Assembly (NCBI RefSeq): GCF_023585825.1
Contig: NZ_CP097751.1
Coordinates: 434,001 to 498,000 of the forward strand
DNA from: Candidatus Blochmanniella camponoti
GTDB lineage: Bacteria; Pseudomonadota; Gammaproteobacteria; Enterobacterales; Enterobacteriaceae
Reading direction: 5' to 3'
Length of the DNA stretch: 64,000 bases
How positions within the stretch are numbered: the first letter of the stretch is position 1; each line of letters begins with the position of its first letter. Both the position numbers and the translations under genes were made by a program. The notes under the pieces are model-generated. The model saw nothing but the letters and a program-made list of their open reading frames with translations. It was not told the origin of the DNA and did not search any database. Of the stretch, positions 11,874 to 62,080 are shown in pieces.

Positions 11874-12434
11874 TAAAATATTTTAAATATAATCAATCGT
11901 GTATGTTGTTGTTATTATGATTCATAATAATAGACATTTTTAATATTGTATATTTAAATAATGTTTCTGCAGAGAAGATTATCAAAAATTATATTTAGAT
12001 GGTAATGTAAAATTACATGTAATAATTCATAAGTTGTTGATCTTAGTATATTTTATGAGAAATGGTTGTTGTTTTTTTTAGATAGATATGTTTTAAAACT
12101 AAATTTAATAAGAATATAATAATGTATTATGTATCATAATACATTATTATATAAAAAGATATAAATAAATATCAACATTATCTGTTGATATGCGCTATAA
12201 AAAATTATAGATTGGTTGTTTTATAACGATTTTTCCGAAAAAAATTAAGCATTATAGTAATTAATTAGAAATTATTCATTTTGAAATGGAATTAGAGTGT
12301 TCTTTTAGATTCTAATGAAATAGTATATTTAAACTGTTTAAGGAAAAGTCATTTAATTAGGGTAAATTTGTTTATATAAATTATATTTATTTGAAATAAT
12401 TAGATATTTTGTGCGCTATGGAATTCAGTAGGTA
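11874..12434. other. Spacer rnpB/yqjA with two hairpins
   Basis: No gene is seen. It holds a long hairpin at 12114-12152 (separate entry) and, 16 nt later, a second one with 9-bp arms ATATCAACA (12169-12177) and TGTTGATAT (12183-12191) around a 5-nt loop. Either could end read-through from rnpB. Confidence 0.55.
12114..12152. repeat. 18-bp perfect hairpin, 3-nt loop
   Basis: Arms 12114-12131 and 12135-12152 are exact reverse complements around the loop TAT. All arm bases are A/T except one G/C pair near each end. An A-run follows the right arm, so it would look like a terminator only for minus-strand transcripts. Confidence 0.7.
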
Positions 12435-31380: not shown

Positions 31381-33048
<1,668 letters not shown>

Positions 33049-33057
33049 TTGAGATCA

Positions 33058-33135
33058 ATTTTACGATAATCACTGAAACAAACACCCCTGATCTAATTAG
33101 ATCAGGGGTGTTTGTTTCAGTGATTATCGTAAAAT
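33058..33135. repeat. 78-bp perfect palindrome between groL and efp
   Basis: The left arm 33058-33096 (39 nt) is the exact reverse complement of the right arm 33097-33135, with no spacer. The central part (CACCCCTGATC .. GATCAGGGGTG, then TTTGTTT) looks like a bidirectional intrinsic terminator, but the match continues far beyond it through GTTTCAGTGATTATCG. With a 2-nt bulge, four more pairs can form outside (33054-33057 / 33138-33141). It starts 10 nt after the groL stop and ends 41 nt before efp. Confidence 0.95.
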
Positions 33136-38081: not shown

Positions 38082-38795
38082 AATGTATACCTAATTTGGA
38101 GATTAATTTGTAATTATGAGATAATGATTAGATTATGTATTTCGCTGTTAGATTGCGTTGGAAATTCATATTTCTTCTAAAAATGAGTATAACATATAGT
38201 ATGTTATTAATCGCATAAAAGTTGTAAAAGTTGTCTACAGTTTCACTGTAGAAATAAAGTGAATTGTATTGTCGATAAAAATCGATGAAGTCATATTGAT
38301 TATTAATGACATAGTTTTTATTGATTTTTTTAAGGATGTATGTAGTTATACATTTTATAAATGTAGTTACGCGAAATCTTTATGATCATGAATTTATTTT
38401 AAATTTGAGATAAAAAGTAATTATTCACGTTTGTAGTATTATTTAAAATTTATAGCTGAAATTGTTTGTGGTTTGTTGGTAATCAATTTTATTTTTTCTG
38501 AAATATTGTAAAAATGAAATTTGTAAATAATAAATCTGTAATTTTATTTAAATAATGCGATGATTTATTTTTAATATTTGATGTGTGTTTACAGAATATG
38601 TTAATATCAATCTACACTTTTAAAAATGTAGATTGATATTTGTTAGCATCATATATAAACAGTATTAGATAAATTTCATAAATATTTAGTATAGATTAAG
38701 AATAATGTGAGTAATATGAATTAAATAAGTTTAGCACTGTAGTGATGTCATTTATTTGAAGCAGAGATTCAGTATATAAGTGTAAGCGGGGTTTT
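38082..38795. other. Spacer psd/orn (site of lost rsgA)
   Basis: In E. coli rsgA lies here on the psd strand; no RsgA motif is recognisable. The one clear structure is a 14-bp perfect inverted repeat, AATATCAATCTACA (38603-38616) and 38627-38640, around a 10-nt loop. No U-tract adjoins it. Confidence 0.55.
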
Positions 38796-47379: not shown

Positions 47380-48681
<1,302 letters not shown>

Positions 48682-51436: not shown

Positions 51437-52213
51437 ATGATGATTTTTTGTTATAAAATGGTTGAAAAAATAAGTTGTATTGCTCGTAAAGCTGGAATAG
51501 AAATTATGAGGATTTATAATGGAGGTTTAAATTTAAACGCGTATAAAAAGTTGGATACATCTCCTGTAACTAATGCTGATTTATTCTCTCACAAGGTGAT
51601 CGTGTACTATTTAAAAAATTTGACACCTGAAATCCCAATTTTATCTGAAGAAGATATTACTACATGGCAGAAATGTAGAGATAGAAGTTGTTTTTGGCTA
51701 ATAGATCCTTTAGATGGAACGAAAGAGTTTTTATTACGCAATGGCGAATTTACTGTTAATATTGCTTTCGTTGAGTACGGTCAACCTATTATGGGAGTAG
51801 TGTATGTTCCTGTGTATAATGTGTTATATGCTGCAGATAATGGACGAGTATGGAAGATTAATGCTAGAGGAGAACGTATAAATATTGCAGTACGTATGTC
51901 TCGTTATCCAATTATAGTGATGAGTCGTAGTAATTTTTGTTGTGATCAATATAAGTTATACAATTTTTTAAACAGGTTGAAAAACTATAAAATTGTTAAT
52001 ATTGGATCTTCATTTAAATTTTGTTTAATAGCAGAAGGTAGTGCTCAATTTTATCCAAGATTTTCTTGTACTAAAATTTGGGATACGGCTGCTGGGCATG
52101 TAATAGCTAGAACAGCTGGCGCCGTTGTTAATGATTGGAATGGTAATCCCTTGCATTATAAAAATATCAATCAGTCTTTTTTAAATCCTGGTTTTCAAGT
52201 TTCATCGCATTGA
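51437..52213 (+). CDS. cysQ: 3'(2'),5'-bisphosphate nucleotidase CysQ
   Basis: Inositol-monophosphatase-family enzyme that hydrolyses PAP (3'-phosphoadenosine-5'-phosphate) from sulfate assimilation and phosphopantetheine transfer. 258 residues (E. coli 246). Metal-site motifs: SEEDI, DPLDGTKEF, and the WDTAAGHVI block. ATG 51437 has AAGG six nt upstream; an internal ATG (51458) aligns better with E. coli Met1. Its retention fits a symbiont that still reduces sulfate, as metC also suggests. Confidence 0.94.
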   Translation: MMIFCYKMVEKISCIARKAGIEIMRIYNGGLNLNAYKKLDTSPVTNADLFSHKVIVYYLKNLTPEIPILSEEDITTWQKCRDRSCFWLIDPLDGTKEFLLRNGEFTVNIAFVEYGQPIMGVVYVPVYNVLYAADNGRVWKINARGERINIAVRMSRYPIIVMSRSNFCCDQYKLYNFLNRLKNYKIVNIGSSFKFCLIAEGSAQFYPRFSCTKIWDTAAGHVIARTAGAVVNDWNGNPLHYKNINQSFLNPGFQVSSH

Positions 52214-52220
52214 TTGATTA

Positions 52221-52285
52221 TAAACATTGATAGTGATCATTTATATTGGTTAAATAAATGATCACTATCAATGTTTAGATTTTTT
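52221..52285 (+). terminator. Strong intrinsic terminator of cysQ
   Basis: 23-bp perfect stem (52221-52243 with 52255-52277), an 11-nt loop, then a T6 run at 52280-52285, starting 7 nt after the cysQ stop. Stem length is about twice that of a usual bacterial terminator. Confidence 0.88.
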
Positions 52286-61024: not shown

Positions 61025-62080
61025 ATGAAATTTGTCGACATGACCAATATTACGGTTATTGCTGGTAACGGAGGGAATGGATGTATCAGTTTTCAAAAAT
61101 CGGGAAGAAGAGCTTCTTTTTTGAAAAAACCTAATGGTAGTAATGGAGGAAATGGTGGGGATGTTTGGTTATTGGCAGATCCTAATATTAATACTTTAAA
61201 TTATTTTCATTCTAATTGTGTTTTTAGAGCTGGGCATGGACAATGCGGGCGTAGTCGTGGTTGTACTGGTAAAAGAGGCAAAGATGTTATTGTGAAAGTC
61301 CCGTGGGGAACTAGAGTAAGCTATAAAAAAACAAATAAATTATTGGGAGACATGGGTATTCATCACAAGCGGTTGATGGTAGCTAAAGGAGGGCGCCATG
61401 GTTTGGGAAATGGACATTTTAAATCTTCTTTACATCGTAAGGCACTTAATACGCATGGGTCAACGGGAGAATTCCAACATTTGCTATTAGAATTACTTCT
61501 AATAGCAAATGTTGGAATATTTGGATTACCTAATTCTGGAAAGTCTAGTTTTATTCGTATAATATCGTCAGCGAAACCAAAAGTAGCAGATTATCCATTT
61601 ACTACATTAGTACCGTATTTAGGTGTAGTACAAATTAATAACTATGACAGATTTGTTATTGCGGATATTCCTGGTATTATTAAAGGTGCTTCTCATGGTT
61701 TGGGATTAGGAATGCGATTTTTGAAGCATTTAGAACACTGTCAAATTTTACTGCATTTTATTGATATTGCGCCTGTGGATAATTCTGATCCATTAGAAAA
61801 TATTATTACTATTCAGAATGAATTAAGTAATTATAATGAAAATTTAGTTAGAAAACCTTGTTGGTTAATATTCAATAAAATAGACTTATTGGAACGACAA
61901 GTGGCGGAAAAAAGGATTAACCATGTTATTAGTTCTTTACAATGGAAAGGGCGCTATTACCCTATATCTTCTATGCATAATACTAATGTATTATCGCTAT
62001 GTAACAGTATTATGAAGTTTATTATTCATCATACTCAAAGTCAAGAATCAACTCTTATGTATGCACAAGACAATGAGTAG
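61025..62080 (+). CDS. obgE: Ribosome-assembly GTPase ObgE
   Basis: GTPase acting in 50S assembly and the stringent response. 351 residues (E. coli 390, which has a longer acidic tail). N-terminal glycine-rich OBG fold (GNGGNGCISFQ, GSNGGNGGDVW), then the G domain: G1 GLPNSGKSS, G3 DIPGI, G4 NKID, G5 ISS. G1 has Ser where E. coli has Ala-Gly-Lys-Ser-Thr (PNAGKST). The linker between the two domains is encoded by a perfect 22-bp hairpin, listed separately. Confidence 0.96.
   Translation: MKFVDMTNITVIAGNGGNGCISFQKSGRRASFLKKPNGSNGGNGGDVWLLADPNINTLNYFHSNCVFRAGHGQCGRSRGCTGKRGKDVIVKVPWGTRVSYKKTNKLLGDMGIHHKRLMVAKGGRHGLGNGHFKSSLHRKALNTHGSTGEFQHLLLELLLIANVGIFGLPNSGKSSFIRIISSAKPKVADYPFTTLVPYLGVVQINNYDRFVIADIPGIIKGASHGLGLGMRFLKHLEHCQILLHFIDIAPVDNSDPLENIITIQNELSNYNENLVRKPCWLIFNKIDLLERQVAEKRINHVISSLQWKGRYYPISSMHNTNVLSLCNSIMKFIIHHTQSQESTLMYAQDNE
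61471..61518. repeat. 22-bp perfect hairpin inside obgE coding sequence
   Basis: Arms 61471-61492 (begins ATTCCAACATTTGC) and 61497-61518 are exact reverse complements around the loop TTAC. It encodes the end of the OBG domain and the first strand of the G domain (HLLLELLLIANVG), which is conserved in E. coli (LTLELMLLADVG), with no insertion. Confidence 0.95.

Follow-up and report, generated by a model that had tools for sequence, protein, structure and literature searches.

A perfect 22-bp palindrome within the obgE reading frame of Blochmannia, probably made and kept by template switching during replication

The obgE gene of Candidatus Blochmanniella camponoti, encoding the GTPase Obg/CgtA (351 amino acids), occupies positions 61025-62080 on the forward strand of the window analysed here, a stretch of 64,000 nucleotides taken from a genome of 790,946 bp, and has a match in all 14 genomes of the genus. 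The named proteins closest to this ObgE come from Blochmannia, a genus of ant symbionts. Wholly enclosed by this reading frame lies a hairpin whose arms, at 61471-61492 and 61497-61518 of the forward strand, form 22 of 22 Watson-Crick pairs without a mismatch. Between them is the four-nucleotide loop TTAC at 61493-61496 (same strand), represented by TTAC, TTGC, CTGC or TCTC across the six genomes that possess the hairpin. The left arm runs from codon 149 (third base) through codon 156 and spans F150, Q151, H152, L153, L154, L155 and E156; the right arm extends from the second base of codon 158 to the second base of codon 165 and spans L158, L159, I160, A161, N162, V163, G164 and I165. Pfam assigns residues 4-157 to the Obg domain and residues 162-285 to the GTPase domain, which places hairpin codons 149-165 at the junction. 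An initial annotation had described a perfect 22-bp hairpin with a 4-nt loop inside obgE, placed where the OBG and G domains meet, and the pairing, the reading frame coordinates and the domain limits bear this description out. Immediately outside the stem, the flank at 61468-61470 (forward strand) offers one G-T and one mismatch in the window genome, and is fully paired in one relative (G006), which carries E149V.

The obgE hairpin is real and is not the product of chance. Ten replicates of the window under a third-order Markov model each held zero or one perfect inverted repeat (arms of at least 14 bp, loops of up to 20 nucleotides), against ten in the real window. The longest arm to arise in 1000 synonymous-codon shuffles of obgE was 13 bp, and when the protein was held fixed and codons for the hairpin stretch were drawn at random 200,000 times, not one draw rose above 20 of 22 pairs. 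The annotation was thus right to call chance negligible, and its accompanying premise, that nothing in the protein demands the pairing and that the odds are about one third per position, requires adjustment. The protein does help: with random codons, a mean of 13.1 of the 22 positions are paired in the hairpin register, and a figure of one third therefore understates chance pairing; the observed 22 of 22 nevertheless stays far outside what the protein provides. It might still be proposed, given those 13.1 expected pairs, that the peptide LLLELLLIANVG simply self-pairs when encoded in an A+T-rich gene and that codon drift finished the stem. Such a coincidence is scarcely credible, being refuted by the codon draws and by the synonymous expectation described below, as far as those null models go, and two relatives (G007 and G006) pair perfectly or nearly so using different bases. 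Fold-back chimeras can generate perfect palindromes, which lends a sequencing or assembly artefact some general plausibility, but the hairpin is found in six genomes with lineage-specific bases and with no stop codon in the stretch. Unless all six share the same artefact this explanation is refuted, and we attach practically no weight to it.

Comparison across the genus revealed a sharply divided distribution. In the hairpin register, 21-22 of 22 positions form Watson-Crick pairs in six of the 14 genomes (G000, G008, G010, G003, G007 and G006), against 5-13 of 22 in the other eight. A tree was derived from 47 gene families (15,494 columns, obgE excluded) for 11 of the 14 genomes; the tree, the synonymous expectation and the covariation counts all refer to these 11, the set of syntenic stretches covering all but G001, G004 and G005. 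In it, G000, G008, G003 and G010 group together and are joined in turn by G007, by G006, and then by G011/G013/G009 and G002/G012, and the six hairpin genomes constitute a clade relative to the five others. Pairing in the five non-hairpin genomes tested lies at synonymous expectation (P 0.30-0.93 for Watson-Crick pairs; P 0.13-0.61 with G-T included). As it is no better than codons predict in these five, the imperfect palindrome seen in relatives can be ascribed mainly to the protein.

Within the clade, individual stems depart from perfection in different places: the second pair counted from the loop is gone in G008, the outermost pair of G003 is G-T, and G006 has a single T-T mismatch. Two further pairs covary. 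Their left partners, at 61472-61473 on the forward strand, are positions 1 and 2 of codon 150 (TTC in the window genome, TCC in G007, ACC in G006), and their right partners, at 61516-61517 on the same strand, are position 3 of codon 164 and position 1 of codon 165. At 61473-61516 the four close genomes pair T with A, whereas G007 and G006 pair C with G, a difference that exchanges Phe for Ser or Thr on the left and leaves Gly in all on the right. The pair 61472-61517 is T-A except in G006, where it is A-T and both codons change meaning (Thr150, Leu165). In G006, codon 149 moreover reads GTA for GAA and the stem grows outward to 24 of 25 pairs, placing Val at a residue that is otherwise nearly invariant as Glu among 24 proteins. 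In obgE, codons 150 and 164-165 accordingly differ in a mirrored fashion, each change being the reverse complement of the arm it faces, and G006 adds the outward extension. Codon 162 (61508-61510, forward strand) is AAT (Asn) in the six hairpin genomes and GAT or GAC (Asp) in the eight other genus genomes; AAT gives an A-T pair where an Asp codon would leave G-T. Among the aligned proteins, the one from the window and the four most closely related to it (P0001-P0004) have Asn162, and the other 19 have Asp; outside the clade, Steffania has Asn too. P0002, an 87% identical protein, combines Asn162 with Arg154; the codon CGA at 154, if used, could still be matched by ATC, an alternative Ile codon, at position 160, and the stem may thus be kept or lost there.

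When 48 window gene families were scanned in six of the 11 genomes, two or more always-paired covarying columns were found in 87 of 94,890 registers. obgE is among these 87 and has the highest overall pairing (0.77, followed by 0.52), although the proportion of about 1 in 1000 serves as a rough yardstick, given that obgE rests on two pairs and that background registers are mostly unpaired. Synonymous constraint as a proof of function was considered and dropped: among amino-acid-invariant codons, 2 of 10 in the arms are variable against 95 of 224, and the reduction in synonymous change is not significant (Fisher P 0.20; the core used, codons 150-155 plus 157-162, is one codon off, the right core of 151-156 plus 158-163 having 2 of 12 variable). 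The annotation had looked to one clustered burst of matching substitutions on a single branch as the sign of template switching and to covarying codons as the sign of function. A one-burst origin in obgE was dropped, as six of the 14 genomes share the hairpin and the mirrored differences are spread between lineages; judged from these alignments, pairing is kept within the clade, but not through a single burst on a single branch. Covariation, for its part, does not discriminate between the two readings, because template switching yields covariation too.

Nine of 11 genomes of the genus contain 8-15 perfect palindromes per 100 kb whose arms measure 14 bp or more (G002 has 1.5 and G012 has 4.5), against 0-0.3 per 100 kb in Markov controls. 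High palindrome density is not special to the genus. Ten other genomes of the family served as controls; among these, the small genomes G020, G034, G060 and G028 have 10-20 per 100 kb, G051 and G029 have 5, G046 has 2.5, and G066, G049 and G022 have none in 40 kb each. A 160-kb sample of six genomes contained 112 palindromes, 81 of them between genes and 26 wholly coding. Coding palindromes of at least 14 bp were present in at least one genome for 17 of the 162 gene families sampled (48 window families and 114 of a second sample), and ten of 19 coding registers were confined to a single genome. In the window set, coding arms of at least 12 bp number 2-4 per 44-45 kb in ten of 11 genomes (G002 has none), against means of 0.17-0.83 in synonymous shuffles of family coding sequence, which covered the 48 window families only and not the 114 of the second sample.

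Several of these palindromes can be followed between species. In purA, a four-genome clade has a 15-bp hairpin (48448-48493) in which TGTGTA stands where six of the seven other genomes have TTAGAA or TTAGAG (TTAGAR). The change converts Leu-Glu to Cys-Val, the new right arm matches the left arm, and the register holds 6-8 of 15 pairs in the seven other genomes; we read the purA right arm as a clear template-switch-like burst. An MscS-family channel gene has a coding hairpin of 27 bp in one species only. Four covarying pairs are present in each of the coding palindromes of pepA and a RidA-family gene in the second sample, where no other register out of 239,244 has more than two. The pepA palindrome (PF00883; L119:9964-10013) is a perfect coding palindrome of 25 bp near the 3' end of the gene and measures 20-25 bp in all six genomes compared. 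Its covariation is mostly silent, and its core resembles a bidirectional terminator (AAAA, a G+C-rich stem, TTTT) within the reading frame. In the RidA-family gene (PF01042; L119:4994-5043), the palindrome measures 16-25 bp in five of six genomes and involves amino-acid changes. The gene at L117:3843-4727, which we take to be metA, has two distinct coding hairpins (up to 17 bp), the first shared by G000, G010 and G007 and the second present in G006.

Between genes, a perfect 39-bp palindrome with no spacer (33058-33135) begins 10 bp past a groEL-family reading frame (31381-33048). The four close genomes show six mirrored double changes at this site, where only the innermost pair is broken, in one of them, and in G007 the site has 45 bp with a 6-nt loop. 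Right past the reading frame at 51437-52213, a 24-bp palindrome (52221-52277) has four mirrored double changes in the four close genomes. The window palindromes at 12114, 25126 and 30069 are imperfect in close relatives, and those at 38603 and 39843 in some of them, a pattern compatible with gain or decay alike.

On comparison of these genomes, the obgE palindrome was probably made, and has probably been kept perfect, by template switching during replication (quasipalindrome correction), and is probably not a selected RNA element. At a slowed replication fork, the nascent strand of one arm would occasionally fold back onto the other arm, be extended on it and then return to its template, with the outcome that the reverse complement of one arm replaces the sequence of its partner. 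Any point mutation in the stem would then either disappear or be transferred to the second arm as well. In the protein, such overwriting would be tolerated at variable positions (150, 165) and on occasion at conserved residues (149, 162), and the loss of hairpin-processing and recombination genes may let palindromes form and persist in the genus. Given the recurrence of palindromes in unrelated genes, the absence of the obgE hairpin from outgroups and the changes to conserved residues, a mutational process fits better than selection. The suggestion in the annotation that a template switch perfected an imperfect palindrome has in this respect proved the better of its two ideas and fits the wider pattern, although not in the form of a single-branch burst.

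Its other idea was that of a useful mRNA hairpin, which might slow ribosomes before the G domain folds or protect the mRNA, selection keeping the pairing and mutations being compensated singly; this includes a mixed form, in which template switching created the stem and selection then preserved it. The surrounding 111 nucleotides do fold very stably as RNA (-39.4 kcal/mol, z -6.5), the stem is located between the Obg and G domains, and pairing is retained in six genomes with two covarying pairs. However, the structure is not conserved wherever obgE is, with eight of 14 genus genomes lacking it and the five tested matching synonymous expectation. The stem also employs Watson-Crick pairs where G-U would be enough, as when the Asn162 codon supplies A-T in place of the G-T left by Asp, and in stems with GGG the G is faced by C, a pairing that replaces Phe with Ser or Thr. 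A-C and G-T mismatches are equally likely on DNA, whereas selection on RNA should favor G-U, and the ratio of G-T to A-C was therefore used as a discriminator. Nine coding hairpins common to more than one genome (162 pairs, counting only genomes that retain 80% or more of the pairs in a gap-free stem) contain 14 mirrored double changes, and their imperfect columns comprise 8 G-T, 13 A-C and 10 others, with no excess of G-U; obgE alone contributes one G-T and no A-C, from few columns. A comparison of ten window palindromes across the four close genomes (194 pairs, those of obgE and purA among them), counted on the forward strand whichever way the intergenic ones are transcribed, gave 15 double changes, 18 G-T, slightly more than the 14 A-C, and 20 others. 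Neither pooled count carries a clear RNA signature, and similar palindromes, often restricted to a single species, occur in unrelated genes and between genes. The stable fold and the junction location thus speak for the mRNA idea, while the mismatch and recurrence tests lean away from it, and we judge it unlikely.

Less likely still is a DNA or transcription element, be it a protein-binding site, a cruciform or an intrinsic terminator. A simple scan does flag the stem as terminator-like (two overlapping sites, against a shuffle mean of 0.5), and the terminal coding palindrome of pepA indeed resembles a terminator. In obgE, however, the scan counted 20 pairs, of which only 6 are G-C, the tail ATTTGGATTA has no T run, and ending transcription there would truncate the gene ahead of its GTPase domain; an intrinsic terminator, flagged by a loose scan only and devoid of a U run, was dropped. 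A 201-base stretch searched against the genome matched only itself and its own reverse arm, leaving no second genomic copy to speak for a DNA element. Rfam returned no family at the gathering threshold, the best of five sub-threshold matches scoring 29.8 bits against 72. An Rfam RNA and a repeated element were dropped on these sub-threshold matches and this single copy.

None of the 14 genus genomes has a match to RecA, SbcC, SbcD or LexA. The large subunit of ExoVII (XseA) exceeds the cut-off in none of the 14 either, three weak matches lying inside frames of more than 1100 amino acids. RecB, by contrast, is kept in all 14 and ExoI in 13; G002, the sole genus genome without an ExoI match, has few palindromes, as have the control genomes G046, G066 and G049, which have no SbcD match. 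Loss of repair genes as a sufficient cause was dropped for these reasons, and the link between palindromes and gene loss is only suggestive. A single open frame of about 650 amino acids in G010 and G006 is represented in G000 (G000:C1:307504-309302) by separate weak matches to the recB profile, which are probably the remains of a decayed gene for a UvrD/Rep-type helicase.

The published literature describes comparable events. In E. coli, template-switch mutations at a quasipalindrome 'universally perfect the palindromic sequence', one arm serving as template for the other; the constitutive rate is not raised in recA mutants and RecA is not needed for induced events, whereas the constitutive rate is up 9-fold when SOS is blocked (lexA3), and recB mutants show a 13-fold rise (PMC6357072). 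Those events were measured in an 18-bp lacZ reporter, whereas the Blochmannia events are deduced from species comparison. Furthermore, Blochmannia retains RecB, unlike the E. coli recB mutants, and a lack of both RecA and LexA does not equate to lexA3. In RNA genes, long perfect stems and mirrored compensatory changes have been explained by arm-to-arm copying (PMC8794818); there the stems, of rRNA and microRNA, are functional and the authors call the role in maintenance less clear, whereas obgE is protein-coding DNA. The arm homogenisation described in yeast protein-coding genes gives clustered nonsynonymous changes and parallel evolution, and purA resembles it, the yeast events being between strains (PMC8604942).

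In nematomorph mitochondrial genes, perfect inverted repeats lie within conserved coding sequence, with concerted arms and with gains and losses between species, and the authors offer repeat conversion as an alternative to function (PMC6649704). obgE, the ridA-like gene and pepA conform to this type in their concerted arms, although coding arms here reach at most 25-27 bp compared with up to 284 bp there. The obgE register corresponds to nematomorph phase 1, the least constraining, whereas among the sampled Blochmannia genes phase 3, the strictest, is the commonest (9 of 20 registers, with 7 in phase 2 and 4 in phase 1, a tally that counts ridA twice owing to an alignment gap). Large palindromes in Blochmannia were themselves noted in 2010 (PMC3017870): those of at least 30 bp number 6 in B. 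pennsylvanicus, 10 in B. vafer and 20 in B. floridanus, all but two are at least partly intergenic, and their presence was argued to be favored by selection. The obgE palindrome differs in being coding and in falling below that cut-off. More broadly, palindromes are over-represented in almost all bacterial phyla and generally normal in coding regions, in a survey of shorter repeats by genome-level counts that cites template switching as a proposed source of short inverted repeats in coding sequence (PMC4060949). Among the matches listed in our search of the open-access literature, none was a report of palindromes within Blochmannia coding sequence.

The obgE case is unusual in that it concerns a core bacterial gene, is common to several species and is still co-changing, although close published parallels exist. 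It is tempting to speculate, and here we stop a little short of even confidence, that a chromosome-wide and continuing template-switch conversion in the genus keeps many palindromes perfect across species and rewrites conserved residues of core proteins (ObgE, PurA and RidA-like), such that the apparent 'compensatory evolution' of mRNA structure may arise mostly as a by-product of mutation following the loss of repair genes. That an RNA structure is functional is usually proved by its covarying base pairs. obgE presents a covarying coding palindrome that is confined to one clade and belongs to a set without G-U excess, and proof by covariation may therefore mislead. For the published claim (PMC3017870) that selection keeps the palindromes of Blochmannia, there would now be a mutational alternative. 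The genus may thereby provide a natural system in which to consider how far template switching pushes protein sequence without recombination and hairpin-processing genes.
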